64,000 bases of DNA from Leptospirillum sp. (lineage in GTDB: Bacteria > Nitrospirota > Leptospirillia > Leptospirillales > Leptospirillaceae): NCBI GenBank assembly GCA_027315205.1, contig DAHUYM010000008.1, forward strand, positions 62,001-126,000. Direction: 5' to 3'. The notes beneath the pieces are model-generated. The model ran no database searches. It was not told the DNA's origin and saw only the letters and a list, made by a program, of their open reading frames with translations. The stretch's first letter is position 1, and every line of letters starts with the position of its first letter. Of this stretch, positions 3,586 through 57,095 are shown one piece after another. The translations under genes were made by a program, and so were the position numbers.

Positions 3586-3828
3586 ATGACAGACAGGAAT
3601 GAAGTGCCGATCACCTTTTCCAGAATCTCACTTCTCAACGAAGAGGAGCCGGATATGTCCCGCGTCAGGGGAGTTGCCTTTTTCGGGCAAAAAAAACTCC
3701 TTCTTCAATCCCAGCGTGAGATCTTTCCTGCCTTTTTCCATCCGACCGATAGCACCTCCCCCGTTTTTTCCGGAATAGGGGCTGTCGTATTCAACTCCGA
3801 TTTCAGGGGATCTAAAAAAAATGAGTAA
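3586..3828 (+). CDS. Possible 80-residue leader ORF, unrecognised
   Basis: An open frame from ATG 3586 fills the leader of the fusion gene and stops at 3826-3828, overlapping the next ATG by a few bases. No Shine-Dalgarno sequence precedes the ATG, the predicted transcript start is only about 20 bases upstream, and the product resembles no family I know. The overlap with the next start could allow translational coupling. It may equally be chance openness in an untranslated leader. Confidence 0.2.
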   Translation: MTDRNEVPITFSRISLLNEEEPDMSRVRGVAFFGQKKLLLQSQREIFPAFFHPTDSTSPVFSGIGAVVFNSDFRGSKKNE

Positions 3829-6800
3829 AACCAATATATATATCGGAATGGCAACCTGCGGCTTGGCTAGCGGTGCCCGGCGTATTCAAGAAGCGGTTGA
3901 GCAGGAAGCCGAAAAAAATGGATACGACCTTGTCTTGGTCCCGACCGGATGCATCGGTATGTGCCACAACGAGCCGATCATGGATATCGAGATGCCGGGA
4001 AGTCCACGGGTTACCTATGGACAGGTCACGCCCGAATCTGTTCCTGCGATCCTCGAATCCCATTTCCGAAAGAATACGTATTACCCAGACCTCGTCTATG
4101 GTCAGACTTCAAGCAACGACTCAGGAGCGATCGAAGGCCTTTCACGACTCGATGAAGCGGATTACTTCCGGAAACAGGTAAAGATCGTTTCCAAACGGTG
4201 CGGAGTGATAGATCCTTCATCCATCGAAGATTACATAAAGTCTAGCGGTTACATGGCCCTTAAGACCGTCGTTTCCTCCTGGACCCCGGAAGCCGTTGTT
4301 GATTGTATCCTGAATTCCGGCCTGAGAGGACGCGGAGGAGCGGGCTTTTCGACAGGGATGAAATGGAAGTTCACCCGGCAATCACCTGGTGAAATCAAAT
4401 ATGTCGTTTGCAATGCGGACGAGGGTGACCCCGGTGCATTCATGGACCGGTCCGTCCTCGAGGGCGATCCCCATTCCGTCATCGAAGGGATGATCATCGC
4501 AGCCTTCGTGATTGGAAATGCCCGCCAGGGTTATATTTATTGCCGGGCCGAATATCCCCATGCGATCCGTCTTCTGAAAAAGGCCATAAGCCAGGCCGTC
4601 GAAAAAGGATTTCTGGGCGAGAGGATCCTCGGGACCGACATGTCCTTTCACATCGAAGTCAAGGAAGGTGCCGGGGCATATGTGTGTGGCGAAGAAACGG
4701 CCCTTCTTGCCTCGATCATGGGCGATCGCGGCATGCCCTGGCCAAAGCCTCCATTTCCCGCCCAAAAGGGAATCTGGGGCAATCCTACCCTCATCAACAA
4801 TGTGGAAACGCTTGCCAATATCCCGCACATCATCCTAGGGGGCGCCGAATGGTTTTCAAGCTTCGGGACCGAAAAGACCAAAGGAACTAAGACGTTCGCA
4901 TTGACCGGGAAAATCAAGCGGACCGGTTTGATCGAAGTCGCCGCGGGAACGACACTCAAGGAAATCGTCTACGAAATTGCAGGCGGCATGTCCGGACATA
5001 AGAAGTTCAAGGCGGCCCAATTGGGGGGACCTTCCGGCGGCTGTATCCCTGTGGACCTCATCGATACGCCCGTCGACTTCGAATCCCTTATTTCAGCGGG
5101 CGCGATCATGGGATCGGGGGGGATCATCGTTCTCGACGAAGCCAACTGTATCGTTGATACGGCAAAATATTTCATGACCTTCACAAAAGACGAATCCTGC
5201 GGGGAATGTACGCCATGCCGGGACGGGACGAAGGTCATGCTCGACATGATCCAGAGGATCAGCGATGGTCGCGGGGAAATGAAAGACCTTGACGACTTGG
5301 TCAATCTCTCCACGTATGTCAAGGCGAACTCTCTTTGCGGGCTTGGTCAAGCCGCTCCCAACCCGGTGCTTTCAACGATCCGTTACTTCCGGGCGGAGTA
5401 CGAAGACCACATCAAGAGAAAAAAATGCGTCGCGCAGTCCTGCAAGGATATCGTGTATGCTCCTTGCCAGCATGAATGCCCGGTGGGCATCGACATCCCC
5501 CGCTACATAACGGAAATCTTCCGGGGACAATACGCCGAAGCGCTCGCGACAATCCGCAAGCGGCTTCCCTTCCCGGGAATCATCAGCCGGACCTGCTACA
5601 GGCCTTGCGAAACTCCTTGCCGTCGTGGCGATTTGGACGAACCCATCGCCATCAACGGCTTGAAGAGGTTTGCCTACGATTGGGAATACAACCAGGGGAT
5701 CCGTCCGGAATACACTCCCGACGCCGACCTGGATAAGAAAGTCGCCGTAGTCGGTTCCGGTCCTGCCGGTCTGACCTGCGCTTTCTACCTGGGAAAGATG
5801 GGATACAAGGTCACGGTTTTCGACCAACTTCCGGTAATCGGAGGCATGCTGGCCGTTGGGATTCCGAAATATCGGCTTCCCAGGGAACTCCTCAACTTCG
5901 AGCTGGCCATTTTCAACAACCTTCCCGTCGAATTCCGCACCAACACGTCGTTGGGAAGGGACTTCACGATGGAAGACCTGTTCCAGCAGGGGTACGATGC
6001 CGTATTCCTCGGAATCGGCGCCCACAAGCCTTCGAAGATGAAGATTGCAGGGGAAGATCTCCCATCCGTACAGGACGGGATCGTCTTCCTGCGAAAAGTC
6101 TGTCTGGAGGAAACGGTACATGTCGGCAAGCGTGTCGCGGTGATCGGAGGCGGAAATGTCGCCATCGACGTCGCGCGCTCCGCGATCAGGAAAGGGGCAG
6201 ACGAGGTCATCGTCTACTATCGCAGGACCCGCGAAGAGATGCCGGCTCACGATTTTGAAGTCCAGGAAGCCGAGCATGAGGGGATCAAGTTCGAATTTCT
6301 CATGGCTCCGCTTGAGATCCGTGAGGAAACCCTTCCGGACGGTTCCAAGGAAACCGTGATCGATTTCCAGGTCAATACGCTTTCGAGGGAATTCGACAAC
6401 AGTGGCCGCCGGAAACCGGTCGCGGTCAAGGGGGACATCAAGCACGTACATGTGGATACGGTTGTTGCCGCCATTGGGCAGACCATGGATACGAGCGTGT
6501 TCGAGAAAAACGGGATCTCATTCCATAAATGGGGCACAGTCAAAGTCGATCCCGATACGCTCATGAGCGAATCCCGCCCCGCCGTTTTTGCCGGCGGAGA
6601 CGCAATGACGGGACCTCTCGACGTCATTCATTCGATCCGTGACGGCGAACAGTGTGCCGTCTTTATCGACCGGTATTTCAAGGGGAACCCCGACAGGTCC
6701 TATCCTTTCTATGCGCCTCCGATCATGGAGGATCCGATCGAGTTGGGCGACATGCACCGTTTGCCCATGCCGGCGCTCCCGATCGAAGCACGAACGGGGT

Positions 6801-6967
6801 TCAGCGAAGTCGAAACCGGTTACTCGGTCCAGGAAGCATGGCAAGAGGCTTCCCGTTGCATCCGGTGCGAACTCGAAGGTCGCATGGATCCCTCGGACAA
6901 GATCAATAAGGCCGAAGGGCTCGTTTCACCTGTGTTTATCAACTTCGATTCGATCACAGTCCGCTGA
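3821..6967 (+). CDS. Fused 2Fe-2S ferredoxin / NuoF / GltD-type flavoprotein oxidoreductase
   Basis: This 1048-residue cytoplasmic redox protein has three modules. Residues 1-90 form a thioredoxin-like ferredoxin domain with Cys13, Cys44 and Cys48; a fourth ligand is not obvious. Residues 120-540 are NuoF-like: the glycine-rich NADH/FMN segment GLRGRGGAGFSTGMKW near 167, GAGAYVCGEETAL, and the 4Fe-4S motif SCGECTPCRDGT near 459 with a later Cys in NSLCGLG. Residues 545-1030 are GltD-like: a CQHECPVG Fe-S motif near 548, an FAD Rossmann motif GSGPAGL near 642, an NADPH-type motif GGGNVAIDVA near 775, and FAGGDA near 923. Such architectures move electrons between NAD(H), NADP(H) and ferredoxin, sometimes by flavin bifurcation. 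The partner here is unknown. A ribosome-binding GGGGA lies about 10 bases before the ATG. The 3' end overlaps the convergent nth gene by 42 bases. Confidence 0.88.
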   Translation: MSKTNIYIGMATCGLASGARRIQEAVEQEAEKNGYDLVLVPTGCIGMCHNEPIMDIEMPGSPRVTYGQVTPESVPAILESHFRKNTYYPDLVYGQTSSNDSGAIEGLSRLDEADYFRKQVKIVSKRCGVIDPSSIEDYIKSSGYMALKTVVSSWTPEAVVDCILNSGLRGRGGAGFSTGMKWKFTRQSPGEIKYVVCNADEGDPGAFMDRSVLEGDPHSVIEGMIIAAFVIGNARQGYIYCRAEYPHAIRLLKKAISQAVEKGFLGERILGTDMSFHIEVKEGAGAYVCGEETALLASIMGDRGMPWPKPPFPAQKGIWGNPTLINNVETLANIPHIILGGAEWFSSFGTEKTKGTKTFALTGKIKRTGLIEVAAGTTLKEIVYEIAGGMSGHKKFKAAQLGGPSGGCIPVDLIDTPVDFESLISAGAIMGSGGIIVLDEANCIVDTAKYFMTFTKDESCGECTPCRDGTKVMLDMIQRISDGRGEMKDLDDLVNLSTYVKANSLCGLGQAAPNPVLSTIRYFRAEYEDHIKRKKCVAQSCKDIVYAPCQHECPVGIDIPRYITEIFRGQYAEALATIRKRLPFPGIISRTCYRPCETPCRRGDLDEPIAINGLKRFAYDWEYNQGIRPEYTPDADLDKKVAVVGSGPAGLTCAFYLGKMGYKVTVFDQLPVIGGMLAVGIPKYRLPRELLNFELAIFNNLPVEFRTNTSLGRDFTMEDLFQQGYDAVFLGIGAHKPSKMKIAGEDLPSVQDGIVFLRKVCLEETVHVGKRVAVIGGGNVAIDVARSAIRKGADEVIVYYRRTREEMPAHDFEVQEAEHEGIKFEFLMAPLEIREETLPDGSKETVIDFQVNTLSREFDNSGRRKPVAVKGDIKHVHVDTVVAAIGQTMDTSVFEKNGISFHKWGTVKVDPDTLMSESRPAVFAGGDAMTGPLDVIHSIRDGEQCAVFIDRYFKGNPDRSYPFYAPPIMEDPIELGDMHRLPMPALPIEARTGFSEVETGYSVQEAWQEASRCIRCELEGRMDPSDKINKAEGLVSPVFINFDSITVR

Positions 6968-17524: not shown

Positions 17525-17788
17525 ATGCACACAGAAAAAGTGGTCCTTTTTGTCCAGAACTTCGGCGAAAACTCAATGATCACGACGTTCGCGAACAACA
17601 TCGCCAATTTCGTGGTGTACGGGCTCGGAGGGTTTCTCTTCATTCTGGGAATGGCTCGTTCCGGTTTTGCGATGAAGTCCCATGATGCCGATGGAATACG
17701 GCAGGGTGTCATGACGATTGCCGGAGGATCCCTTGTTCTGATGTCGAAAGCGATCTGGGACACTCTCACCAGCTGGGCGGGGTTCTAG
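17525..17788 (+). CDS. VirB2/TrbC-like candidate pilin subunit
   Basis: This 87-residue protein has two hydrophobic segments (about 20-42 and 55-75) separated by a short polar loop, the shape of VirB2/TrbC pilins. It lacks the long cleavable leader seen in many pilins. ATG 17525 is chosen because a perfect AAGGAGG lies 5 bases upstream; an earlier in-frame start is not needed. It is the first gene of the T4SS-like operon, one base before the VirB3-like gene. The assignment rests on size, topology and position, not on a diagnostic motif. Confidence 0.6.
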   Translation: MHTEKVVLFVQNFGENSMITTFANNIANFVVYGLGGFLFILGMARSGFAMKSHDADGIRQGVMTIAGGSLVLMSKAIWDTLTSWAGF

Positions 17789-17789
17789 G

Positions 17790-18092
17790 ATGAAAGAAGA
17801 ACCGGTTCTCCGGGGAATCCTCGACTCTCCGCGGCTGGGTCGATTTCGGGTTCCGCTCGACATCTACCCATTTATCGCCGTCCTTCTGGCGGGGTTTATG
17901 ATTCATCTTTCCCTCGTCACGATCTGTGTCCTCAATGTTTTACTCGCCATGTGCGTCTGGAGGCTCAGAAAACAGGGGGAAGGCACTCTAAGGGGATTTT
18001 TTTCTTACGCCATTTCACGTCGAATCTTTCTTCCGTCCGGAAAAACGAACCCTTCGCTCCCCAAGGGATTCCGGCGTTCCTTGAATTCATGA
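17790..18092 (+). CDS. VirB3/TraL-like inner-membrane protein
   Basis: This 100-residue protein has an N-terminal RGILDSPRLGRFRVPLD segment like the VirB3 pattern, a double hydrophobic stretch at about 26-58, and a basic tail containing FFSYAISRRIFLP. VirB3 proteins anchor the VirB4 ATPase to the inner membrane. Its stop overlaps the VirB4-like ATG (ATGA), the usual B3-B4 coupling. Confidence 0.65.
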   Translation: MKEEPVLRGILDSPRLGRFRVPLDIYPFIAVLLAGFMIHLSLVTICVLNVLLAMCVWRLRKQGEGTLRGFFSYAISRRIFLPSGKTNPSLPKGFRRSLNS

Positions 18093-20596
18093 AAAACGAC
18101 TTTTTCCCTGAATCGCGCAACCCTCCCCTGTCCAAATATCTCGACCTGCTGGGAGAGGAAAGGGGGATCCTCTATGGTTCGAGGGGGCGTTATGCCCGGA
18201 TTTTCCGTCTTTCCGGAGCACCTGTTTTCTTCAAGTCCGAACCGGATCTGGCCCAAATATACCGGGGGATCGGAAGTCTCCTCCACGTGCTGCCGGAGGG
18301 CATGGGTCTCCAGTTCCGGGTCGAAACGCGCATCCGGAAGCCGGATGGTACGGAGGAAAACCCCTTCTTCCGGTTCGGGAGAAGATCGGATGCGCCGGAG
18401 TTTTCCGGGGATAGCCCGGAGACGTTCTACCACCAATCCAAGAAAAAGGATTTCGAGGGGAGGGTGTTTCGGGAAAGGGCCCTTTATATGGCCGTCGTTT
18501 CCTATCCGGACGAGGATCTTTCAAAGATTAGGCCCTCCCTGTTCCCGATCCGTTCCATCATAAAGGGCAACAGGGGTCCGCTCGAAAAACAACACCGACA
18601 CAGGATCGAATCCCTGGATTCGGTATGCCGGACGGTCGACGCCCTGTTGCCCGGCTGCGGGATCCTGGGCACCCTTTTGGAAGGAACTCTGTTATGGAAC
18701 TATCTTTTCGATCTCTTGAATCCCGGTTCGGACGGAGACATCCCGGAGCATGAACCGGATAATCCCTACGGATATACCCTGGGAGAACGCGTGGGACAAA
18801 CCGGGTTTATCGAAAACCCTTCCGGTCTCATGGCCCGTACCCCGGCCGGACATGCAATGCACGGAAAAATGTTCGCGCTTCGCCTTCTTCCGTCCAGCAT
18901 CGACCGGGACACTATCGCCCCGATCCTTCACGATTTCGCGTTTTCCCACGATATCGTTCTGAATCTCTGGAAACCCGAGGCCGAAAAATGCTCCCGGGCC
19001 GTCCAGACCCATGCGACACTGAACCGATTCCTCACTCTTCTGCTCCCCGGAAAGTCCTATCGCCTGGAAAATGATATTTCGAAACAGGATGCCTTCCTCA
19101 TGCGCTCTCATCAGGGTCCGGAAGAGGAACGGGTCCCGTACCTCTTGAATCTTGCCGTACGCATATGGGGGGAGAGCGAATCCGACCTTCTTGAAAAGGG
19201 CAAGGAATTGACACGGGGATTTTCGGAAGCGATGGGCGCTTCTGTCGGTCACGAACTGTTTCGTCAATGGCCTCTTTTCCTGAGTTTCCTTCCACTCCAG
19301 GGCGACGCCAACGATCGCTGGGAAGTCCTTTTGTCAAAAGATATCGCCCCGATCCTCCCGATTTGGGACAAGACGCCCGACCCTGCGACTCCCTGGTTCA
19401 TCTCGAAAAACCATCTCGACGAACCCGTCGCGATCGACCTTTGGGATTCCCGATTGCCGAACCACAACGGTCTTGTGCTGGGGCGTTCCGGAAGTGGAAA
19501 ATCCTTCGGGGTCAAGATGCTCCTGGGCCAGTTTCTGAGCCGGGAAAAGGCTCACCATGCCATCGTCGTCGAGAACGGTGGGGACTTCGAACGCTTTTGC
19601 CGCTTCTTCGAAAGCCCTTATATGAAAGTGGATCTCTCCGGAGTCCATTCCTTGAATCCGTTTCCGACACGTGAGCAACTGTGCATTTCCGACGGGCCTC
19701 CTCTTCAATACGATCCGGACCTGGTCGGCTTCCTGACAGGGGTGATGGAAACGTTCATCGCCCCGTCCGTCAAAGTTGAAGAAATCCATCGAAAGATCCT
19801 GTCCTCCTGCCTGATTTCCGTTTACGACCGGCTCCCGGACCACGCATCTCGTCCGATGCTTTCCCATCTGGTCCAGGAGCTTTTCCGATACCGGGGCCGA
19901 GACACGGAAGATGAGACGACCTCCTATGCAATCGGGAAAATCCTGGATTCCTGGGCAACCGGAATTTACGGCGCTCTCTTCAATCATCCGAAAGGGTTCG
20001 ACTTCGACTCCCGACTGATGGCGTTCGACCTGGGAGGACTGGACCATCATGAGCACCTGAAAGGGATCCTCTTCGCGTTCATCGGAAGTCTTTCGCTTTA
20101 CCGTCTCAAAGAGGGAGCGGGGAGACGGAAGCTGTTCCTGGTCTTCGACGAGGCCCACCGGATTCTCCGCTATCTTCAGGGTACCGAATTTCTTTCCCAC
20201 CTCTATCGCACCGTTCGGAAGTTCGGCGGGGCCGTCATTGCGATAAGCCAGTCTCCGTCGGACTTCACCGACCAAAATCTCGCGGCAGGGATCCTGAACA
20301 ATACCGCCTGGAAATGGGTTTTCCCCCTCCAGTCCGGAGTCCCGGATCTTGAAACTCTTGGATTCCACGAGAGGGAAAGGGACCTCGTCGAAACACTGGA
20401 ATTCGAGAAAGGCGTCTATTCCGAAGTCCTTTCCCGGATCGGTGAAGATACAACGATTCTCAGGCTTGAACCCTCGCCCGTCGAGTACTGGATATCCGCC
20501 AAGTCTCCTGAAGAAGACGCCCGGTTCGCGGAAGCCCTCGAAACGGGGGGATCGTTTATGGAGGCGCTTCGTCTGCTGACCAGGGAAAGGTCGTGA
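18089..20596 (+). CDS. VirB4/TraC-type T4SS ATPase
   Basis: This 835-residue ATPase energises assembly and transport in type IV secretion. Walker A (VLGRSGSGKSFGVK) lies near residue 464 and Walker B (LFLVFDEAHRIL) near 682, followed by a sensor-like VIAISQSPSDF segment. The N-terminal half is the membrane-associated VirB4/TraC domain. ATG 18089 overlaps the preceding stop; a longer in-frame opening from 17951 lies inside the VirB3-like gene. It is the most diagnostic member of the operon. Confidence 0.9.
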   Translation: MKNDFFPESRNPPLSKYLDLLGEERGILYGSRGRYARIFRLSGAPVFFKSEPDLAQIYRGIGSLLHVLPEGMGLQFRVETRIRKPDGTEENPFFRFGRRSDAPEFSGDSPETFYHQSKKKDFEGRVFRERALYMAVVSYPDEDLSKIRPSLFPIRSIIKGNRGPLEKQHRHRIESLDSVCRTVDALLPGCGILGTLLEGTLLWNYLFDLLNPGSDGDIPEHEPDNPYGYTLGERVGQTGFIENPSGLMARTPAGHAMHGKMFALRLLPSSIDRDTIAPILHDFAFSHDIVLNLWKPEAEKCSRAVQTHATLNRFLTLLLPGKSYRLENDISKQDAFLMRSHQGPEEERVPYLLNLAVRIWGESESDLLEKGKELTRGFSEAMGASVGHELFRQWPLFLSFLPLQGDANDRWEVLLSKDIAPILPIWDKTPDPATPWFISKNHLDEPVAIDLWDSRLPNHNGLVLGRSGSGKSFGVKMLLGQFLSREKAHHAIVVENGGDFERFCRFFESPYMKVDLSGVHSLNPFPTREQLCISDGPPLQYDPDLVGFLTGVMETFIAPSVKVEEIHRKILSSCLISVYDRLPDHASRPMLSHLVQELFRYRGRDTEDETTSYAIGKILDSWATGIYGALFNHPKGFDFDSRLMAFDLGGLDHHEHLKGILFAFIGSLSLYRLKEGAGRRKLFLVFDEAHRILRYLQGTEFLSHLYRTVRKFGGAVIAISQSPSDFTDQNLAAGILNNTAWKWVFPLQSGVPDLETLGFHERERDLVETLEFEKGVYSEVLSRIGEDTTILRLEPSPVEYWISAKSPEEDARFAEALETGGSFMEALRLLTRERS

Positions 20597-20622
20597 TGAA
20601 AACGAACGGATCGGGGGGATAG

Positions 20623-21219
20623 GTGGGAAACCGGATAAGAAGAACGCCAGTTTTGGTTGTTCTCGTAATTTTTTTGTTGTTGGGACACATGCAAACGGCT
20701 TGGGCTCTGGGGGGAATCGGAACCCTCGTGGAAAGCCGGATCCTTTGGGTCGAAACGCGAACGATGCAAAGCCTCCAACATTTGAAAAGCTTTTTCCTTG
20801 AGAAAGACCAGGGCGAGGATTTCTATGGCACTCCCGTCCTTCCCGTGGAGCCTCCAAGCACGGATCCGGTACCGACGACGGCTCCCAGTATCTCGGACCT
20901 TACCTTGTCCGCCCATGAAGGGATGGGGGAAGCTCTGGGGGGGATCGCCCAGACCCCCGGGGAAGAGGTAATCGGTCAGGGCATCCATCAAATGGCATAC
21001 CAGGCCAGCCCTGAAGGCGCCCTTAGGCTGGGTGCAGATACCCAGGGGCATATCTACCAGATCCTTCTTTCGATCCACAAGGATCTTCTCTATCTCCTGA
21101 AGGAGCAGTCGTCCTCGGCGGGAATCGAGGGGCACGTGATCGATCTTGCCCATCAAAGAGACCAGGAAGACCAGAGGATCATCGAGATGCAATTGCCAAG
21201 CTGGATCATTCTCCGCTGA
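20623..21219 (+). CDS. Exported protein in VirB5 position, unrecognised
   Basis: The 198-residue product has a signal peptide (hydrophobic 10-28 ending in AWALG). A region with many Pro and Thr follows (about 66-90), then a mostly helical C-terminal half. It lies between the VirB4-like and VirB6-like genes, where VirB5/TrbJ minor pilus proteins occur, but I see no convincing VirB5 motif. The start is GTG 20623, with a GGGGGGAT ribosome-binding stretch. It ends 2 bases before the VirB6-like gene. Confidence 0.5.
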   Translation: MGNRIRRTPVLVVLVIFLLLGHMQTAWALGGIGTLVESRILWVETRTMQSLQHLKSFFLEKDQGEDFYGTPVLPVEPPSTDPVPTTAPSISDLTLSAHEGMGEALGGIAQTPGEEVIGQGIHQMAYQASPEGALRLGADTQGHIYQILLSIHKDLLYLLKEQSSSAGIEGHVIDLAHQRDQEDQRIIEMQLPSWIILR

Positions 21220-21221
21220 CG

Positions 21222-22439
21222 ATGCTCTGTCCTGGACCCAACGGCCGCATCGGAACGCTTCTGTTCCAGGATTCCACAACGATCCCCTGTGTCATGGTGC
21301 CCATTCAGGGACAAATTATGGGTGTGGTCCGTATCCTGATGCTGGTGACACTCCCCATATCGGTCCTCGTCCTCTGGGGAAAGATGCGCGACCAGAAACC
21401 GATTTTTTCCGACCTGGTCCGCATCGTGACCGTATTTATCCTGCTGATCGGCTATGGAACGTTTTTCCAGGACATGACCGGTTTTGTCGGATCGGTGGCG
21501 AATGCCCTCTACCCTTCAGACCGGATTCTTGCGTTCTACGAGGCGTTGTGGGGTTCACCACTGGTTCCGGGAACCGCCGGGTCGTTTCTGAGTTTCCTGT
21601 CCGATCCGATGGGGCTTTTTTATGTTCTCCTGGTGGACTTTTTAAAGGTCCTCGTTTTTCTATTCACGCTGATTCGATATGCACTGTTGTCCTTCCTGTA
21701 TGTGATCGGCCCGTTGCTTTTCGCCATGGGAATCATTCCCGGACTTTTTTTCATGGTCTTCCAGTGGGGCAGGAACGCCATCGAGATCATGTTCTGGCTC
21801 GTGATCCACAATGTTTTCATCGGTATTTTCACGGCCATCAACCTGATCCAGGCCATTCAGCCCGTGGCCCTTTCGGTAACGATCACCAACCGTGTGCTAT
21901 CGATCGGGGTGATGCTCGTGCTGGTACTCATGTTCCTTTTTGTTCCGATCCTGACCCATCTTTTGCTCGACCGGTCGTACGAAGGGATCGGATCGTTCGT
22001 GGGACCCCAGGTGACGATGATGGGAAAACGGATGTTCGAAGCCGGTTTCCTCCGACCCCTCTCGACGGGGGAGATGCCATTGGGCTTGGGTGAGCTCAAG
22101 TTTGGAACGGTGACGAAAGATACCGGCCAGGGGAAACGGGTCTACCGGAAGAAGCAGTTCAGGATCGGTCCTTACAGCGTCACCTCGTTACTGTGGAAAA
22201 GAAAACCGAAGGAAACGAAAGAACTGTCTGCTGGATCGGCATCCGAGGACACCCCTCAAAAAAGTCCCCGCAAGACAAGGAAAGCGTCAACGCGAAAAAC
22301 CCCGTCTTCGGAGACCCCGACGAAACCCAAGACCCGGACAAAAAGAACCTCTTCCAAACCGGCCCCGGACTCCGGCATGCCCAGGGCACCCAAGCGCCGA
22401 AAGTCGGCAAAAAAAGAAGAAAGTGAAGCCAATCCATGA
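21222..22439 (+). CDS. VirB6/TrbL-like polytopic membrane protein with basic tail
   Basis: This 405-residue protein has about six hydrophobic segments between residues 30 and 260, in a TrbL/VirB6-like pattern. The last 85 residues are a low-complexity Lys/Ser/Thr/Pro tail (runs such as KSPRKTRKAS). VirB6 forms part of the inner-membrane channel and contacts substrate. The basic tail could bind DNA or the cell surface, but this is speculation. It overlaps the VirB8-like start by 4 bases. Confidence 0.7.
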   Translation: MLCPGPNGRIGTLLFQDSTTIPCVMVPIQGQIMGVVRILMLVTLPISVLVLWGKMRDQKPIFSDLVRIVTVFILLIGYGTFFQDMTGFVGSVANALYPSDRILAFYEALWGSPLVPGTAGSFLSFLSDPMGLFYVLLVDFLKVLVFLFTLIRYALLSFLYVIGPLLFAMGIIPGLFFMVFQWGRNAIEIMFWLVIHNVFIGIFTAINLIQAIQPVALSVTITNRVLSIGVMLVLVLMFLFVPILTHLLLDRSYEGIGSFVGPQVTMMGKRMFEAGFLRPLSTGEMPLGLGELKFGTVTKDTGQGKRVYRKKQFRIGPYSVTSLLWKRKPKETKELSAGSASEDTPQKSPRKTRKASTRKTPSSETPTKPKTRTKRTSSKPAPDSGMPRAPKRRKSAKKEESEANP

Positions 22440-23125
22440 ATTTTCCGTTCTCATTCTCCGGATCGACGGAACGTGACATCCCGTTGCCCCCTTCCGGGTT
22501 CGACCGACTTCTCGAACTGGAAGACCGGCTGGTCCTCTACCTGCGCGTCTACTGGATCACTGTCACCGCTTTTATCCTTGCCATTCTGGGAATCTGGTAT
22601 ACGTCTCCGAGAGTTCCTCTCGTGGTCGGGATCACCCAGACCGGTTCGATGATGCCGATGGAAGTCCTTTCGAAGGAGGAACGACACACACGGTTCGGAA
22701 TGATTCTTTCCTCGTTCATCAAGGATTTTCTTCGCGATTTCACGGAGTACGATTCGTTCCAGGAACCCTACCGTCTCTCGCGTGCTTTTCGTGTCATGAC
22801 ACCGGCACTCATGACAAAGCTCGAAACCGAGTTTCGTGAAAAGGGGATTGTCGACAGGATTACCAAGGCCCGGATCCGGAGCCGGATCGAAATACGCGAA
22901 AGCCGGATTCGCCGGATTTCTGACGGGATCTACGCCGTAACCGTGGTCAGCGTCAGGCATGTCGCGTCCTACGATGACCCGGCGTCCAGACGCGATGAGG
23001 TCCTCAAATCACGGCTTGTCGTGCGGGAAGGATCCCCGACGCCGACGAATCCCTATGGTCTTTGGGTCACGTCGTATGCAGAACATCTCCTGGACCGGAG
23101 CCAAACCGGTGGAGGAGCGCCATGA
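22436..23125 (+). CDS. VirB8/TraE-like assembly protein
   Basis: This 229-residue bitopic protein has a short cytoplasmic N-terminus, one TM helix at about 39-58, and a periplasmic domain of VirB8 length with SRAFRVMTPALMTKLE and a C-terminal LWVTSYAEHLL strand. VirB8 is the assembly hub linking inner-membrane and core complexes. ATG 22436 overlaps the upstream stop, and its own stop overlaps the VirB9-like ATG. Confidence 0.72.
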   Translation: MNFPFSFSGSTERDIPLPPSGFDRLLELEDRLVLYLRVYWITVTAFILAILGIWYTSPRVPLVVGITQTGSMMPMEVLSKEERHTRFGMILSSFIKDFLRDFTEYDSFQEPYRLSRAFRVMTPALMTKLETEFREKGIVDRITKARIRSRIEIRESRIRRISDGIYAVTVVSVRHVASYDDPASRRDEVLKSRLVVREGSPTPTNPYGLWVTSYAEHLLDRSQTGGGAP

Positions 23126-24240
23126 AAAAAGGGTTTTTTGCGGGATTTATATTGAGTCTGGTCATCGTTCTGCTCCCGGTCTTTCTTTACATGGACGCCC
23201 GATCCTCGTCTCCCCGTCCATCGAACTCCTACGGGGCACCGAACGTGCCGGATCCGTTCATCTCTGGGGCGATCCGTCCGGACCGGTCGACCGGTCCGTC
23301 GAATCTGCCGTCCGGAACAGACAATGGAGATCCGCCAAAGACGAATGAACAGGAAAAAGAGGCAAATCCGGATGAAAAAAAAGCGGAAAACATCGTGATG
23401 CTTAAAAAAAGGGACATTCCCCAGGCGAACTTCCGGGTCCCGAAGCACGAGGGGATCCGGACACGGGTCTACGACCCCAACAGGATCTATACGCTCCGCA
23501 CCGCGATCTCGCATGTCTCCCTGATCGACCTGCCGGAAGAGGCGAAAGAGGTCTATATGGGGGATTCGAAACTCTTCCTGGCCGAGGTCTTCGGTTCACG
23601 CGTGAAGGTAAAACCCATCACGTACGACCCGGCGTCCAAGACCAACATGATCATCTACACGATCCACAAGCGATTTACGTTCAGGGTGAAAACCGTTCCG
23701 CCAGGTGAAGAGGACGACCTGACGACCTTCCTTTCCCCCGACGCCGAAACCGTCGTGAACCTGAATCCCCTGAAGACCGTGATCCGGGAGCACATGGAAA
23801 AAAAGGAGGCCAGGGATCTCGAGGCGAAACGGACCGAGACCCTGAAGGAAGCCGGACCGACGATGCCGCTCCGGATATCAGGAGTCACTCGACGTATTCT
23901 CATGACTTTTTTGGGATTCTCCCGGAATCAGGACTCTTTTTTCGGCCTCCTCGAAATCCGGAACGGCAATTCCCGGCGTTTTTATCTGAGCGGGGTCCGG
24001 ATCCGGAAATATAAAAGCGGACTTTTTTGGGAAGGACAAAAAGAATTCGATCCCCGGTCGGACTGGAGCCAGAGTTTCAACGCCTGGGTGGACCCTGGAA
24101 CGAGCAAGAGATTTCTCGTTCAGGTGGGCCATGTTCCGGGATTGTCGTCCCGTGAAGGGATCCGGGTGGTTGTGGAAGGGACCCTGAGGGGAGAAGGGGA
24201 TATCCGCTGGCGCGGGGATTCGGGTGGCGTATTCCGATGA
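23122..24240 (+). CDS. VirB9/TraK-like periplasmic core protein
   Basis: The 372-residue product has an N-terminal hydrophobic export segment (5-23), a Pro/Ser/Asp-rich linker (about 28-90), and a VirB9-like N-domain. That domain reads as YDPNRIYTLRTAISHVSLIDLP, then GDSKLFLAEVFG, VKVKPITYDP and TNMIIYT. A C-terminal beta-rich region with GVRIRKYKSGLFWEG follows. VirB9 builds the outer-membrane core ring with VirB7 and VirB10. ATG 23122 (ATGA overlap) is the start. No separate VirB7 lipoprotein was found. Confidence 0.78.
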   Translation: MKKGFFAGFILSLVIVLLPVFLYMDARSSSPRPSNSYGAPNVPDPFISGAIRPDRSTGPSNLPSGTDNGDPPKTNEQEKEANPDEKKAENIVMLKKRDIPQANFRVPKHEGIRTRVYDPNRIYTLRTAISHVSLIDLPEEAKEVYMGDSKLFLAEVFGSRVKVKPITYDPASKTNMIIYTIHKRFTFRVKTVPPGEEDDLTTFLSPDAETVVNLNPLKTVIREHMEKKEARDLEAKRTETLKEAGPTMPLRISGVTRRILMTFLGFSRNQDSFFGLLEIRNGNSRRFYLSGVRIRKYKSGLFWEGQKEFDPRSDWSQSFNAWVDPGTSKRFLVQVGHVPGLSSREGIRVVVEGTLRGEGDIRWRGDSGGVFR

Positions 24241-25220
24241 CGGGACGATGGGGATTCATTCTCGGTCTGGCCGGTATCGGTTTTTTCCTGTATTCGTCCT
24301 TTCATCCGGGATCACTGTCACGTCAAACATCACGCGTGTCAGAAGGAGAAGGGAATGCCACCGGTACCGGGTTCCCTCGGAATACCACACGCTGGCAAAC
24401 GCCCCCGAGCTGGACGGGGTTCTCTCTGTCTCCCGGATCCCGAACCTCCGGGCAAAACGCGTCGATCCTTTCCGGGAAGTCCGCCCGTCACGATCTCGAT
24501 TCACAGAGCACCGTCTATATCGGCTCAGGATCGCCCACGGCAGCTTCTCCGGCGGCGGACAATCCTCTGATCGCACTGGTGAAAAGTGTGTTTTCGAACG
24601 GTCGAACGCCATTGTCCCCCCGGATTCCCGCGAATCCGGAGGCCCGGAGATCGTCCGGAGGGTCCGGGGGCGTTCCTTCGGGAACGACCCTCAAGGGCGA
24701 AGTTGTGCGAGATGTCGAAGGGCCGGGAAGCCAGGTTCCCATCTATGTCATCGTCCTCCCTCAATCGGCCGGAGAGATCAGAATCGGTCATCCGTTCGAA
24801 TTGATGGGATATCCGGACGGACTCACGGAGGATCGGCGGCTTAAGGTCCGGTTCATCAAAGCACTCTACCGGGGAGGATTCGAATCGCCGATGTCCGGGT
24901 ACGCCCTGTCCGGAGGAAGGGAGGGGATACCGATCCGGCTTTCGAACCATTTCGGCGGCAACATGACCCGCTCGTTCGGACGGGATTCTCTCATGCTGGG
25001 TGGGGCAGCTGTGGGAGCCGCCGGATGGTCGGGCAGCGGAAATCTTGCCGATGTCCTGGGAATGGAAGAAGGCGGCACGTTGCTTTACGAGGCGCAAAAC
25101 GGCATCTCGTCGCAAAATCGCCAGCCCAGTTATCGTCTCGACCGACACACCCCGATCGACGTCCTGGTCGTCCAGGGGTTTCCCCTTGCGGATTCTTTGA
25201 CGTCCGGAACCTCAAAATGA
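24237..25220 (+). CDS. VirB10/TrbI-like core protein
   Basis: The 327-residue bitopic protein has a TM segment at about 6-22, a long Ser/Gly/Pro-rich periplasmic linker (25-150) and a beta-rich C-domain. That domain starts near GTTLKGEVVRDVEGPGS and includes a GYALSGGREG segment and a Gly-rich helical insertion (LMLGGAAVGAAGWSG) like the VirB10 antenna region. VirB10 spans both membranes and couples ATPase activity to the outer pore. Its start overlaps the VirB9-like stop, and its stop overlaps the next ATG. Confidence 0.72.
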   Translation: MTGRWGFILGLAGIGFFLYSSFHPGSLSRQTSRVSEGEGNATGTGFPRNTTRWQTPPSWTGFSLSPGSRTSGQNASILSGKSARHDLDSQSTVYIGSGSPTAASPAADNPLIALVKSVFSNGRTPLSPRIPANPEARRSSGGSGGVPSGTTLKGEVVRDVEGPGSQVPIYVIVLPQSAGEIRIGHPFELMGYPDGLTEDRRLKVRFIKALYRGGFESPMSGYALSGGREGIPIRLSNHFGGNMTRSFGRDSLMLGGAAVGAAGWSGSGNLADVLGMEEGGTLLYEAQNGISSQNRQPSYRLDRHTPIDVLVVQGFPLADSLTSGTSK

Positions 25221-26077
25221 CCCTTGACGATCTGTTCGAGTTCGTCGGGAGCTGCCGAAATCTGGAAAGGGAGATAAATGCCCTCTTTTATGAACGCGAA
25301 GAGGCGATAAGAGCCTCGATCCTGGCCCTCCTGACGAACGAGCACGTCTATCAGATCGGACTGCCCGGAACCGGAAAAAGCCTTCTGATCCGAACCCTTG
25401 CCCAACGTGTGTCCGGATGCATCTTCTTCGAAACGCTCCTGAACGGTGAGTCCACCCGGGAATCCCTTTCGGAATCCACCGGGAGACAGGGCCTGGCGAA
25501 CGCTCATATCGTTTTTCTGGACGAAGTATTCAGGGCCCCGAAATCCCTCCTGTTTTCCCTTCTTCCCGCCCTGAACGAACGCATCTTCTACGACGGAGGC
25601 CCAAAAAGACTTCCGCTCTTGTCCCTCTTCGCCGCCAGCAACCAGAATCCCTCTCCGGCGGACGGACTTGACGCCTTCTACGATCGCTTCACATTTCGGT
25701 CCCTGATCCGTCCCATCGCGAAAAAAAAGAATTTCCAGGACTATATGGACGACCATCGCCCGAGCATGCCCAATTTGGGGGATTTCCCCCTCCCGGTCGA
25801 CTCGTTAAAGGAGTCGGGGAACGCTATCCGAACACTGGTCGAGTTCGATGTCGGGGGACGCGAGGCGATCTGGCACGTGCGGGAACGTTTTTCCCAAGAG
25901 GGAATATGGCTTTCGGACCGCCGTTGGAAGAAGGTCTGGATCGCCGCGAAGGCCGCCGCGGCTTACGCTTTTTCCGAGCGCGTGAGAGAGATCCATGTCC
26001 GGGAATTGTTCCCCGTCTTGTGGACGTATCCGACAGAATTCCGGATGATCGAACGCATCCTTCTCGAGATCTCCTGA
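25217..26077 (+). CDS. MoxR/RavA-type AAA+ ATPase in the T4SS-like operon
   Basis: This 286-residue AAA+ ATPase has Walker A GLPGTGKS near residue 48, Walker B HIVFLDEVFRAP, a sensor-1 region LFAASNQNPS, and an Arg-finger region around FYDRFTFRSLIRP, all typical of the MoxR/RavA clade. It has none of the VirB11 hallmarks. ATG 25217 overlaps the VirB10-like stop, so it is translationally coupled to the secretion genes. MoxR proteins usually remodel partner complexes, often with a VWA protein, which is not found here. It may replace VirB11 or act as an assembly chaperone. Confidence 0.85.
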   Translation: MTLDDLFEFVGSCRNLEREINALFYEREEAIRASILALLTNEHVYQIGLPGTGKSLLIRTLAQRVSGCIFFETLLNGESTRESLSESTGRQGLANAHIVFLDEVFRAPKSLLFSLLPALNERIFYDGGPKRLPLLSLFAASNQNPSPADGLDAFYDRFTFRSLIRPIAKKKNFQDYMDDHRPSMPNLGDFPLPVDSLKESGNAIRTLVEFDVGGREAIWHVRERFSQEGIWLSDRRWKKVWIAAKAAAAYAFSERVREIHVRELFPVLWTYPTEFRMIERILLEIS

Positions 26078-29056: not shown

Positions 29057-30262
29057 TTATTCACCATTCGCAGAATACGCGGTCACGCTGTTTCCGAACG
29101 TATTGCCCAACGATACACCTAAGCACGGACCCGTTTTCGGTCCGTTCTGACCGACATAAACATAGGGTACCGTATTTCCTGCGATCCCGTTCAAAGTGGC
29201 ATCCGGAAACGACGTCATCGCTCCTGTATTATAAACCTCACAATTGGCATAAGGGGCATTGAACTCGTTTAAAGGGATGCTGGGACTGGCTCCTGCGTAT
29301 CCGGGAGCCGGAAAAACGAGTTGCATGATGTTCCCGTTTCCGTTGGCCACCTCGACGAATTCGCATTGGCCCGTCGTGCAGTATTGTTGGGTTGGGTTGT
29401 TTCCCACATAGGTCGTAATCGCCGTCGGGTTGTTGAGGTCATTGAAATTACCCGTATTGAAGGTTGCGACCAATTGAAGGGTCCCGTTGTTGGAATAAAA
29501 AACATAGATAGATCCGGGATTGCCTGAGGGATTTGCCGTGTCGGTGACATAGAGGTATCCGTATTTGTCGGCGGTGACGGCTGTTATATTTACAGTGGAA
29601 GGAAGGCCGGAGGGAAGAGCTTGTAGCGACAGTGATGGGGGGGTGGTTCCCGCTTGAAACGAAAAATAGCTCCCTGTCGATGTAATTCCATACACAAAGG
29701 GCGTGGATCCGTTAACGGAAGTCGCTAACCCTACAACGCTCGAAGATCCAATTGATAAAGTTATGTTGGTACTAGTCGTACCGCAAGCTGTAGATGAAGA
29801 CGAATTCGTCCCCAACGTGAGCGTTCCACTATTTGAAGAGGCAAAGTAAACGTATGATGTACTGGATGTACTGTTAAAATAGGTCGCTATTCCGGAAATG
29901 GAAGAGGTCAACCCTGTTGTTCCGCATGAGATAGCAGCAGATGACGGTCGAGACGTCCCGTTCGTAGTCCAGGCGTTCAAATTTCCCCCAGAATCTCCCA
30001 CAAAAAGGTACTTTGCGCTCGTCGCAACCTCCGTTGCAAGGGATCTTACAGGATTAGTTCCAAGGGGAGGATTCACGCAGGTGCTTGTCCCCGATTCTAC
30101 ATAACACCCGGCATCTGTTGAAGTAAAAAGAACGATGGATCCCGTCTGCCCTGTCGGCAGTGGAGTTGCCGGTCCGGTGGAGTTCCCGCTGGAACAGGAT
30201 CCGACGATCAAAATCAGTATACCGAAGAGAATCCCTCCCAAAGCCGATATTCGTTTTTTCAA
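29057..30262 (-). CDS. Exported lipoprotein, Ser/Thr-rich beta-propeller-like
   Basis: The product is about 401 residues. The leader ends in a lipobox (LILIVGSC), so it should be lipidated and exposed at a membrane surface. The mature part is rich in Ser, Thr, Gly and Asn. It has repeated strands of NHL/propeller flavour such as SAKYLFVGDSGGNLNAW and YGYLYVTDTANPSG, and several paired cysteines. TTG 30262 is preferred over an upstream ATG because GGAG lies 8 bases before it and the leader then starts KKRISALGG. The upstream lipoprotein gene ends 47 bases away, so the two form an operon. The function is unknown. Confidence 0.65.
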   Translation of the reverse strand: MKKRISALGGILFGILILIVGSCSSGNSTGPATPLPTGQTGSIVLFTSTDAGCYVESGTSTCVNPPLGTNPVRSLATEVATSAKYLFVGDSGGNLNAWTTNGTSRPSSAAISCGTTGLTSSISGIATYFNSTSSTSYVYFASSNSGTLTLGTNSSSSTACGTTSTNITLSIGSSSVVGLATSVNGSTPFVYGITSTGSYFSFQAGTTPPSLSLQALPSGLPSTVNITAVTADKYGYLYVTDTANPSGNPGSIYVFYSNNGTLQLVATFNTGNFNDLNNPTAITTYVGNNPTQQYCTTGQCEFVEVANGNGNIMQLVFPAPGYAGASPSIPLNEFNAPYANCEVYNTGAMTSFPDATLNGIAGNTVPYVYVGQNGPKTGPCLGVSLGNTFGNSVTAYSANGE

Positions 30263-30309
30263 ATCCCTGTCTCCATCGATCCTTGATCGTCCAATTGAAT
30301 ACGGAACAT

Positions 30310-31617
30310 TCACTGAAGCCCCGGGTTCGTTGCGGAGATCGTATATGTGGGCGGGTTATCTCCCGTGAAGGTCGACATCGGTGAAAAACCGAAGAGCTGG
30401 CCGTTATTGACCTGCGAGTTGAACATCAAACCGGACCCCGTCGGGAATTCCGTCGACGTGATTGTTTGATTCGGATCGAAGGTCAACGCATAGGACCCTG
30501 AAAGATTGGTGCCCAGCTGATTGTTGATGTTCGGGCCCCCGATCTTCCGCGTGGGAGCCCCTCCTCCGGTGGGATAGCCGTTTATCAGGCTGCCGACATT
30601 GTCCCAGATGAGGATATCGTTGTTCGCCCAATCCGAAACATATAACGACTGGTTGTATACGACGATTCCCGTCGGTACGGAGAGGAGGGTGTTTCCCTGT
30701 GCCAGGCGGGCCGAAGGCTGGATGTTCATGTTGCCGTTGCAGCCTGTGGGAAGAGGGCTCTCGCTGGCCACTCCCAGGCAATAGCCGTTGGAATAGATCA
30801 TCACTTCCGCATTTCCGGTATTCGAGACAAACAAGGTTTTCAGCTGATTCGAAAAATACAGGAACCCCGGGCAGTTCAACGCGGTATTGTTGGCGGATAG
30901 CCCCGCACAGATCCCGTTCGCGACCCCCGGGAGGATCCCCCCGGATGGAGAAAGATTGTAGGTTCCGGCCCCTGATATCTGGGAAAGGTCGAAAGAAAGA
31001 ACGCCACCCCCCCCGGAATTGGCCACAAAAAGAATCGGATGTGTCAGTGCCGTTCCTGATGAATCGACCAGATCCATCGACATGCCTTCCGGCGCGACTA
31101 GACTCGTATTGCTTCCCATGATCGTGATGTCGGGAGTCGCTTTTGGGGAGTTTGCGTTGAACCCACAATAGATGTAAATGGCATTATTTACACCGTCCGA
31201 AACGAGCAAGGCCGGGGTGGAACATCCGGTGATAGAAGGAAGAGCCCCAATACCGTCAAGGGCTAAAATATTTTTCGCGTAAGGATAGACCAGCAAACCA
31301 TCCGGACCTTGCAACCCTTGGGACAGGGTGGAACCCGGGGATATTATTCCGCTGGTCTGAAGGAAAGAGGAGGAGGTCGCATAGCTCGGAAAAACGAGAA
31401 CCTGATGGGAGCCGTAGCTGGTGACTGTCATAAAGGAATTCGCAGGGGTTGCATTATCCGAATAAATGGCCAATCCATAGGGATAGTTGATGTTGTTCGT
31501 TCCAGGAGGATTGTTCCCGCATCCGGCAAGATTCGTAACGAGGAGGAGAAAGAGACTCCAGAAAAACCCGCGGAACGCACGCCGTGACGCATGGTGCGTC
31601 CTCAGTAAATAAGTCAT
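30310..31617 (-). CDS. Exported lipoprotein with NHL-like repeats
   Basis: The 435-residue product has a signal peptide with a perfect lipobox (TNLAGC at about 29-34). The mature protein is rich in Asn, Ser and Gly and carries NHL-like repeats, for example KTLFVSNTGNAEVMIYSNG and QSLYVSDWANNDILIWDN, consistent with a beta-propeller. The in-frame opening continues to 31695, but ATG 31617 begins a normal lipoprotein leader. It is the first gene of a two-gene lipoprotein operon and is divergent from the siroheme reductase gene. A binding or scaffold role on the cell surface is inferred only. Confidence 0.68.
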   Translation of the reverse strand: MTYLLRTHHASRRAFRGFFWSLFLLLVTNLAGCGNNPPGTNNINYPYGLAIYSDNATPANSFMTVTSYGSHQVLVFPSYATSSSFLQTSGIISPGSTLSQGLQGPDGLLVYPYAKNILALDGIGALPSITGCSTPALLVSDGVNNAIYIYCGFNANSPKATPDITIMGSNTSLVAPEGMSMDLVDSSGTALTHPILFVANSGGGGVLSFDLSQISGAGTYNLSPSGGILPGVANGICAGLSANNTALNCPGFLYFSNQLKTLFVSNTGNAEVMIYSNGYCLGVASESPLPTGCNGNMNIQPSARLAQGNTLLSVPTGIVVYNQSLYVSDWANNDILIWDNVGSLINGYPTGGGAPTRKIGGPNINNQLGTNLSGSYALTFDPNQTITSTEFPTGSGLMFNSQVNNGQLFGFSPMSTFTGDNPPTYTISATNPGLQ

Positions 31618-31832
31618 CGATTGAATAGGAAACCCCAAGAAAATACTGGATCTGAAAATATTTACATGATCCACTGGTTGAATCGGATTTTGCAATCCGG
31701 CAGGTATTTCAATTATCGAATAATATCAAAGAATGCAGCACTAAAAGTCAACGGTGGCGTTGAAGGTACCTTGCCTCCGAATCCTCGATTCAAACTTTCC
31801 CGAATTATTTCGTGTATAAATCCCATTAACCG

Positions 31833-37509: not shown

Positions 37510-38976
37510 TTGAGGATTCACGCCCGTCTAGAAAAAGCGTTCATTTTTTACTCATCGATCCTGCTTTTTTCAGCGGGCTGCTCGACGGTAGGCACTCCTT
37601 CAAAAACAGTCACGCATAGTCAGAAGTCCGATATCGCCGGTAATCTTCCCCAAAATGTACCTCCTCCCTTGATACCGAGCCCTTCCCCGGATCAACTGAA
37701 GACTGGCACACAAACAAAGACGGTAACGACCCCGGGAAACCTTCCCAAGGGGAAACAAATCCTGACAATGGCGACGCTTCAGGGGAATTCGGGAAGTCTT
37801 GCGAAGATCGAGATCAACAGTCGACCCTTCATGAGGATACCGGACGATTCCAGTATCGAGTGGTATAAAACGTATTTTCAAACGGCCGGACGGCAACATT
37901 TCAAAGTCTGGCTCGAACGGTCGACGAAGTATCTCCCGTTTATCAAGTCCGTGTTTCGACGGGAAGGCCTGCCTGAAGATCTTGCCTATCTTTCCCTGAT
38001 AGAAAGCGGGTTCAGTCCACGCGCCTATTCCTATTCAAGGGCATCGGGACTTTGGCAATTCATGAGCTGGACCGGCAGAAAATATGGACTGAAGGTCAAC
38101 TGGTGGATCGATCAGCGCCGGGACCCAGTCCAGTCGACGTACGCTGCTGCCCGTTACCTGAGGGACCTTTACAATGAATTTCATTCGTGGAGTCTGGCTC
38201 TCGCCGCCTACAATGCGGGGGAGGGGAAGATCGCGAATGCCGTGGCCGAAACGGGAACAAAGGATTATTGGGAGATCCGGAATACAAACGCCATTTCCAA
38301 CGAGACGAAAGATTACGTTCCGAAATTTCTCGCCGCGCTGAAGATCGCAAAGGATCCTTCCCGATACGGTTTGGGAGAGATCGATTATGATGATCCTCTC
38401 GATTTTGAGACGGTCTATATCCACCATCCGACGGAAATCCGTACACTTGCAAAGTCGGCCGGGATTACGATGTCCACCTTCAGGAACTTCAACCCCGAGT
38501 TTATCCGCTGGGCGACTCCACCGCACATCCCATCGATTCCGGTCAATATTCCCAAGGGAATGAAAAATCAGTTCCTAGCCCGTCTTTCAAGCTTGCCGGA
38601 GTTATCCCACGGTGAAATGCTTTCAGACCAGGGAGTAGGGAACCACACCATTCGGTCCGGGGACTCCCTATGGACGATCTCACGTCATTACGGGGTATCT
38701 GTCCGGTCCTTGATGGAGGCCAACAACATTTCGAACACATCGATTCTCCGTCCGGGTAAAAGATTACTCATTCCTCCGGCGGGGGTTTCTTCAAGACATT
38801 CGGGCCATCATTATTCCTCCCATCATGGGTGGGTTCGCCATCGAATCAGGAAGGGTGAATCTCTTTTTGTATTGGCGAAGAAATTTCGGACGACGATATC
38901 GGCCATACGGATCAAGAATCATCTCTCGCGCAATTTCCTGCGTGCAGGTCAAACCATCATGGTTCCCATCCGGTAA
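37510..38976 (+). CDS. MltD-like lytic transglycosylase lipoprotein with two LysM domains
   Basis: The 488-residue lipoprotein (lipobox LFSAGC near 18-23) cleaves peptidoglycan glycan strands. The SLT domain at about 155-300 contains the catalytic Glu in AYLSLIESGFSP, followed by SRASGLWQFMSWTGRKYG and AAYNAGEGKIANA. Two LysM modules are at about 378-422 (HTIRSGDSLWTISRHYG) and 440-486 (HRIRKGESLFVLAKKF). The start is TTG 37510, with AAAGGAG 6 bases upstream. Confidence 0.93.
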   Translation: MRIHARLEKAFIFYSSILLFSAGCSTVGTPSKTVTHSQKSDIAGNLPQNVPPPLIPSPSPDQLKTGTQTKTVTTPGNLPKGKQILTMATLQGNSGSLAKIEINSRPFMRIPDDSSIEWYKTYFQTAGRQHFKVWLERSTKYLPFIKSVFRREGLPEDLAYLSLIESGFSPRAYSYSRASGLWQFMSWTGRKYGLKVNWWIDQRRDPVQSTYAAARYLRDLYNEFHSWSLALAAYNAGEGKIANAVAETGTKDYWEIRNTNAISNETKDYVPKFLAALKIAKDPSRYGLGEIDYDDPLDFETVYIHHPTEIRTLAKSAGITMSTFRNFNPEFIRWATPPHIPSIPVNIPKGMKNQFLARLSSLPELSHGEMLSDQGVGNHTIRSGDSLWTISRHYGVSVRSLMEANNISNTSILRPGKRLLIPPAGVSSRHSGHHYSSHHGWVRHRIRKGESLFVLAKKFRTTISAIRIKNHLSRNFLRAGQTIMVPIR

Positions 38977-56052: not shown

Positions 56053-56126
56053 CAACAATTTTGCTCTTTAGTTCGTCCGATGAAGAAATTTGTTTTCCCA
56101 GGGAGATTCTCTTTATAGTGAAAGCT

Positions 56127-57094: not shown

Positions 57095-57095
57095 A

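Follow-up and report, generated by a model that had tools for sequence, protein, structure and literature searches.

A conserved VirB-type operon of Leptospirillum with a MoxR ATPase in the virB11 slot, and its possible role in DNA uptake

What does a VirB-type channel do in a genome in which no coupling protein, relaxase or VirB11 is found, and what is a MoxR ATPase doing in its operon? The question is raised by nine genes on the forward strand of Leptospirillum sp. contig DAHUYM010000008.1 (assembly GCA_027315205.1), located at positions 17525-26077 of a 64,000-nucleotide stretch, hereafter the window. The host belongs to a family of acid-loving, iron-oxidising bacteria. The genes are tightly packed: gaps of 1, 26 and 2 bases separate virB2 from virB3, virB4 from virB5 and virB5 from virB6, and five 4-base overlaps join virB3 to virB4, virB6 to virB8, virB8 to virB9, virB9 to virB10 and virB10 to moxR. 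The first-pass annotation of the window had given exactly this packing, and its description of a VirB-type channel operon with moxR as the last gene was borne out by family scans and by the predicted fold of the VirB10-like protein. Since the same genes recur in the same order in related genera, the operon is far beyond chance. Its G+C content, 0.55-0.58, is the same as upstream over 14 kb (0.545-0.584), and that of the downstream DNA drops to 0.51-0.53. A scan for promoters and terminators gave promoter-like sites at chance level (3, with 2.9 expected) and 21 terminators (14.1 expected), and was not used.

The operon very probably encodes a fixed core machine of the Leptospirillum family, with MoxR as one of its parts. 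The machine and the place of MoxR in it are well supported; its direction, its substrate and the action of MoxR are what we infer below. The explanation that we favor, tentatively and at somewhat less than an even chance when taken as a whole, is a VirB-type machine, domesticated and passed on vertically, in which MoxR takes the place of VirB11 or supplements it; with ComEC and DprA as partners, the machine would most likely serve DNA uptake.

Conservation was assessed in 81 genomes, comprising the host, 20 others of its family and 60 others of its phylum. VirB4 orthologs with 45-59% identity to the host VirB4 were identified in 15 of the 21 family genomes, including all four that are at least 90% complete; the six genomes without VirB4 are 64-80% complete. 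Outside the family, VirB4 was found in one of 60 genomes (G066), where it is distant (21% identity) and its locus was inspected by eye only. A VirB4 profile search of the phylum returned 16 of 395, namely the same 15 and one weak match, and no VirB4 match contained an internal stop. A contig scan with two peptide patterns, which reach close relatives only, recovered 13 loci, all from Leptospirillum sp. or Nitrospirae metagenome-assembled genomes, and no relative was found among viral contigs.

The chromosomal setting is conserved as well. On one side the operon is flanked by a 3-hydroxyisobutyrate-dehydrogenase-type gene and an ABC/FtsX transporter, and on the other by a small gene without a family, a radical SAM gene that we take to be of the HemW type and an integrase gene that we take to be of the XerC type. 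At least one of these flanks was present in 13 of the 15 VirB4 genomes, the contigs of G010 and G015 being too short to judge. Differences were one-sided: the stretch fetched from G006 lacked the dehydrogenase gene, and that from G019 lacked HemW. Protein distances of VirB4, VirB5, VirB6, VirB10 and MoxR tracked those of FtsX, the ABC ATPase, the dehydrogenase and HemW (Pearson 0.82-0.98, Spearman 0.56-0.85, 15-36 genome pairs). In seven hand-picked genome pairs, with several genes missing for some pairs, all finite ratios of nonsynonymous to synonymous substitution rates (dN/dS) were 0.30 or lower, and those of the pilin did not exceed 0.007. These results indicated that the operon, being conserved, syntenic, under purifying selection and similar to housekeeping genes in its distances, is a core system and not a passing element. 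A mobile element was rejected on the shared flanks, the low dN/dS, the housekeeping-like distances and the lack of a relative on viral contigs.

Mean column identity was 93% for the pilin, 68% for VirB4, 67% for VirB5, 66% for VirB6, 63% for MoxR, 62% for VirB9, 60% for VirB10 and 59% for VirB8. The VirB4 alignment (A1) included 13 of 17 matches and left out L013, the partial L015, the distant L016 and the fragment L017. The other alignments (A2 to A8) combined the window protein with those of the 13 loci that hold the gene, which were 9, 8, 11, 9, 10, 12 and 11 loci, respectively. The pilin (window 17525-17788) was the most conserved operon protein, which is unusual for a surface pilin. One genome alone (L051 14980-16628, the same genome as L021) carries approximately 1.6 kb of extra DNA between virB8 and virB9, with an open reading frame of 273 amino acids that has no family.

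The last gene of the operon (25217-26077, +) encodes a MoxR/RavA-type AAA+ ATPase of 286 amino acids and lies where Agrobacterium-type operons have virB11, directly after virB10. The protein matched PF20030 above its cut-off (E 3e-26) and further matched AAA_5 and AAA_lid_8, and RavA was the closest solved structure (E 6e-24). Motifs that we take to be Walker A, Walker B (VFLDE), the SN sensor, the DRF motif and the SDRRWK lid motif were invariant in all nine aligned sequences. The AAA core, the lid and the SDRRWK motif are common to the RavA/MoxR family, whereas RavA has approximately 498 residues and the Leptospirillum protein is shorter, lacks the C-terminal extension and is tied to a VirB operon instead. 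MoxR ATPases are chaperone-like and usually, though not universally, have a vWA gene beside them; no vWA partner was detected among the operon proteins and the seven window flank genes scanned. Matches on plasmids were found in 124 records, the best of them 34.6% identical and located on Listeria plasmids.

MoxR orthologs were present in 13 of the 21 family genomes and in none of the 60 other genomes of the phylum (E 1e-15). Two genomes with VirB4 and no MoxR match, G010 and G012, have contigs that end before the moxR slot. In all 13 genomes that show both genes, virB10 and moxR are adjacent, their matched parts less than 100 bases apart. The synteny of moxR with virB10, which the first-pass annotation had proposed to check in relatives, therefore holds, and this check did not refute moxR as a part of the operon. 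A MoxR ring in the virB11 slot of a host in which VirB11 was not detected could be a non-orthologous replacement, and whether MoxR does replace or supplement VirB11 in a VirB11-like role we regard as an evenly balanced matter.

The host genome is 99.93% complete, in an assembly of 42 contigs, and was searched for the parts that the operon lacks. Coupling proteins (PF10412, PF02534) gave no match in it, with a lost plasmid being possible in an assembly of 42 contigs, and each of the three relaxase classes searched (PF03432, PF08751, PF03389) also gave none. The T2SSE family (PF00437) gave one host match, GspE, which sits in a type II secretion cluster that also encodes GspD, F, G, N, L and K. 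Because this GspE is the sole T2SSE-family ATPase found in the host, neither a VirB11 nor a type IV pilus motor was found. These searches agree with the earlier statement that no coupling protein, VirB11 or relaxase lies near the operon, and the whole-genome search for VirD4, relaxase (in these three classes) and VirB11 that the same annotation had proposed did not turn up the missing parts elsewhere in the host.

ComEC and DprA are both present in the host and occur in 18 and 17 of the 21 family genomes, respectively. No ComEA-like receptor was seen in the host, where the only HHH_3 match was GspK. In the host ComEC-like protein (L068:7645-9249, -), the Pfam Competence domain was the only one matched; none of the other domains usual in such proteins appeared at E 1e-4. 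A published account of strain CF-1 lists a gsp operon and likewise reports that no type IV secretion system there is complete (PMC7084401). In the window itself, two prepilin-like genes lie at 56061-57782, the second encoding a GspJ-type pseudopilin, and the gsp cluster is on another contig.

Support for the individual parts of the channel varies. The virB2-like gene (17525-17788, +) encodes a pilin of 87 amino acids that matched PF04956 (TrbC/VirB2) above its cut-off (E 4e-9) and was aligned from 12 sequences. The VirB4/TraC-like ATPase (18089-20596, +; 835 amino acids) matched P-loop_TraG above its cut-off (E 2.5e-21), and TIGR02746 (TraC) was its best model (E 2e-52), yet at 177.9 bits against a strict cut-off of 567; its Walker A and Walker B residues were invariant in the 13 aligned sequences. 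The VirB9-like protein (23122-24240, +; 372 amino acids) matched PF03524 (E 1e-7) over part of its length, 2 bits below the cut-off, as well as TIGR02781 (E 2e-7) and, by profile, TrwF/VirB9 (E 0.004). PADLOC named mad8 and HerA for VirB4 and gave weak matches to mad8 and Nhi for MoxR; all of these are P-loop matches, and a defence system was rejected.

For the VirB10-like protein (24237-25220, +; 327 amino acids), no sequence family scored above its cut-off and no solved structure was found by profile. In its predicted fold a helix at the N terminus is followed by a disordered linker and by a strand-rich, VirB10-type C-terminal domain, with a mean predicted local distance difference test score (pLDDT) of 61.6 over the whole chain and of 73-92 per ten-residue block in residues 141-240. 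Two predicted helices (244-262 and 270-287) lie at the site of the VirB10 outer-membrane helices, at low confidence (45-50). When the model was searched with Foldseek, rows 1-20 were all core chains of type IV secretion systems (VirB10, TraB-type, CagY, DotG-type and ComB10; best E 3e-9), and the VIA-align Z score was 13.9 against Dot/Icm, 13.7 against F and 9.0 against ComB10. The predicted fold therefore indicates that a component of the outer-membrane ring is present, so that the core component VirB10 is, on the model, encoded in the operon.

The remaining labels are assigned mainly from gene order and weak profiles. The VirB3-like protein (17790-18092, +) is a small membrane protein of 100 amino acids in the slot between virB2 and virB4, matches no family above cut-off and has orthologs at the same place that are 34-41% identical. 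The VirB5-like protein (20623-21219, +; 198 amino acids, GTG start) is a putative exported helical protein, so labeled for its position and its N-terminal hydrophobic, signal-peptide-like stretch; it matches no family, and its predicted model is all-helical and poor (mean pLDDT 55.9). The VirB6-like protein (21222-22439, +; 405 amino acids) is a polytopic membrane protein by position and hydrophobicity, without a family match, and has orthologs at the same place. The VirB8-like protein (22436-23125, +; 229 amino acids) matched PF04335 below the cut-off (E 0.007) and paired by profile with a collinear plasmid protein at a probability of 75%. When profiles were compared with solved structures, VirB6, like VirB10, had no sequence match and VirB8 an unrelated match only. 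The earlier VirB assignments thus stand for VirB2, VirB4, part of VirB9, VirB10 (by predicted fold) and MoxR, and those for VirB3, VirB5, VirB6 and VirB8 remain candidates by order, size and hydrophobicity or, for VirB8, a weak match. The description 'complete-looking' was slightly generous, as neither VirB1 nor VirB7 is among the nine operon proteins, small open reading frames not having been searched for a VirB7 lipoprotein. At 37510-38976, 11.4 kb downstream of the operon, the window encodes an MltD-type murein transglycosylase with LysM-like matches, which appears to be a general cell-wall enzyme and no evident VirB1.

Three known secretion or conjugation systems come closest to the operon. 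The best plasmid match of VirB4 was on Myxococcus stipitatus pYRE (24.9% identity over 72%, E 2e-38), where VirB4 and four further proteins follow a pilin-like protein and a small protein, in the order of the operon. Profiles paired with the same-position pYRE proteins for VirB4 (100%) and, as given above, for VirB8; those of VirB9 (35%), VirB10 (7%) and VirB6 (6%) were best there but weak, and VirB2 (1%) and VirB5 were not convincingly paired. The pYRE system differs in being plasmid-borne, in having a coupling protein upstream (TraM recognition domain) and in that the stretch seen carries no annotated MoxR gene. There is therefore a mobile conjugation system of such build, and the Leptospirillum version has MoxR added and no coupling protein found. 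In the place expected for virB10, pYRE (L072:20567-23008) encodes an 813-residue protein with an N-terminal protein kinase domain, the C-terminal 163 residues of which align weakly with the VirB10-like profile (E 0.005); it is perhaps a kinase-VirB10 fusion.

The second system is the F type (MPF_F), with which the operon shares a VirB4 that scores best with the TraC model, though below its cut-off, and the lack of VirB11. The two differ in that the Leptospirillum gene order is VirB-like and no coupling protein or relaxase was found, and none of the F-type accessory proteins TraF, TraH, TraN, TraU and TraW is among the nine operon proteins.

The third system is Helicobacter pylori ComB, which likewise has a reduced VirB set (pilin, VirB3, VirB4, VirB6 and VirB8 to VirB10) without VirD4 and without a relaxase, in a host with ComEC and DprA; ComB10 was among the fold matches of the VirB10-like protein. 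The differences are that the Leptospirillum VirB4 is TraC-like and that MoxR takes the place of the VirB11-type ComB11. A published account describes ComB as a unique competence-specific type IV secretion system that lacks VirD4 and that, long thought to lack VirB11, requires a VirB11-type ATPase binding ComB4 for DNA uptake (PMC13395361). No VirB11-type ComB11 was found in the host, and the operon was therefore not classed as ComB. Of the two machines, only ComB has been shown to take up DNA.

The first-pass annotation had offered DNA release, DNA uptake and effector secretion without choosing among them. The gene content of the host favors uptake, and the direction is not fixed by these tests. 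Uptake is preferred because the mating parts are absent, because ComEC and DprA occur in a host in which no type IV pilus motor or ComEA-like receptor was seen, and because ComB is the closest described type IV secretion system that handles DNA without a coupling protein. We consider DNA uptake a plausible function of the machine, at slightly under even chances. According to this proposal, the machine would derive from a conjugation apparatus with a TraC-like VirB4, for which neither a coupling protein nor a relaxase of the tested classes was found. The orphan MoxR in the virB11 slot would probably do the work of VirB11, as a second ring ATPase at the base of VirB4. VirB11 itself docks on VirB4 as an ATPase hexamer (PMC12857230). 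The MoxR ring would switch or drive polymerisation and retraction of the pilin, and retraction of the pseudopilus would draw double-stranded DNA from outside the cell through the ring that VirB9 and VirB10 form in the outer membrane, and so into the periplasm. ComEC would then move one strand into the cytoplasm, and DprA and RecA would recombine that strand. In its action the machine would resemble Helicobacter ComB, to which it does not belong.

Several observations weigh against uptake or against this role of MoxR. ComEC and DprA are weak markers of uptake because each was also matched in 10 of 14 control genomes, including Escherichia coli. ComB has no VirB5, whereas the Leptospirillum operon keeps a VirB5-like gene. 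The F system functions without VirB11 (PMC12857230), so that a TraC-like system may need no replacement for it and MoxR may act otherwise. In 97,534 host bases and 90,001 bases of genome G003, no uptake-signal-like word came near one copy per kb, and the commonest words were close to their sub-word expectation. Genome G003 also encodes additional ATPases of the T2SSE family and has a pilus-like cluster near comEC, so uptake there could use another route. This cluster (L070 4590-16043, G003:C1 approximately 492.6-504.0 kb) encodes prepilin-like proteins and T2SSE-family ATPases. A coupling protein and a TrwC relaxase are encoded approximately 40 kb away in the same genome, and the cluster looks like a plasmid-type pilus carried by an integrated element.

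Export by a machine that has no coupling protein is an unlikely alternative to uptake. Proteins or DNA would enter the channel from the periplasm or via VirB4, and MoxR, as a chaperone-like ATPase, would remodel the substrate or the channel. The retained VirB5-like protein and pilin speak for it, but the operon holds no candidate substrate gene and its flanks are housekeeping genes. VirB11 was also not found in the host, although exporters of this kind usually keep it. Some type IV secretion systems without VirD4 do export (PMC12857230).

Rather doubtful is a conjugation-type pilus that would attach the cell to minerals or biofilm partners, with neither DNA nor protein as substrate and with MoxR aiding assembly or retraction. 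The conservation of the pilin, the highest among the proteins compared in both identity and constraint, and the lack of a type IV pilus motor in the host fit this reading, but surface pilins usually vary faster. Selection also acts on the outer-membrane core and on the VirB4 motor, a weak objection since a pilus would need both.

Improbable in our view is a helper mating apparatus serving mobile elements that would supply the coupling protein and the relaxase themselves. Coupling proteins and TrwC-type relaxases do occur in relatives, among them G003, G004 and G019, but the operon is kept in the host and in the complete-looking G002 and G006, none of which gave a match to the coupling-protein families, and the fixed inheritance of a mere helper would be hard to explain. 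A decaying conjugation remnant, as the first-pass annotation had allowed, would account for the absence of coupling protein, relaxase, VirB1 and VirB7 but is contradicted by intact VirB4 matches, purifying selection, vertical inheritance and flanks common across genera, and is very improbable.

If DNA uptake is the function, a second, unrelated competence type IV secretion system would show how a DNA exporter gets reversed, and if MoxR is the base motor, a large and poorly understood group of ATPases would gain a defined machine. The full proposition, a second independent co-option of a conjugation machine for DNA uptake that is family-wide in these acidophiles and in which MoxR replaces VirB11 as base motor, is one that we hold as unlikely, if worth stating. 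Recombination has been reported in natural populations of Leptospirillum group II (PMC2704941), and an uptake machine would supply a mechanism for it. Leptospirillum type IV secretion components have been mentioned as conjugation genes (PMC4223469, PMC5880901), and ComEC and a TrbG-like protein have been mentioned near other loci (PMC7231039). No description of the operon was found in the portions seen of the open-licence literature on Leptospirillum type IV secretion, VirB4, natural transformation or ComEC, or on MoxR with type IV secretion. Likewise, the titles and abstract openings of the open-licence papers found for MoxR in connection with type IV secretion and VirB4, or with VirB10, describe no MoxR ATPase as part of such a system.

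Two further features of the window were noted. Adjacent genes at 29057-31695 (-) encode proteins of 418 and 461 amino acids with lipoprotein-like starts and no family match, and are conserved nearby in two other loci. At 3821-6967 (+), a protein of 1048 amino acids joins a NADH-dehydrogenase 51-kDa-type domain to a pyridine-nucleotide oxidoreductase domain.

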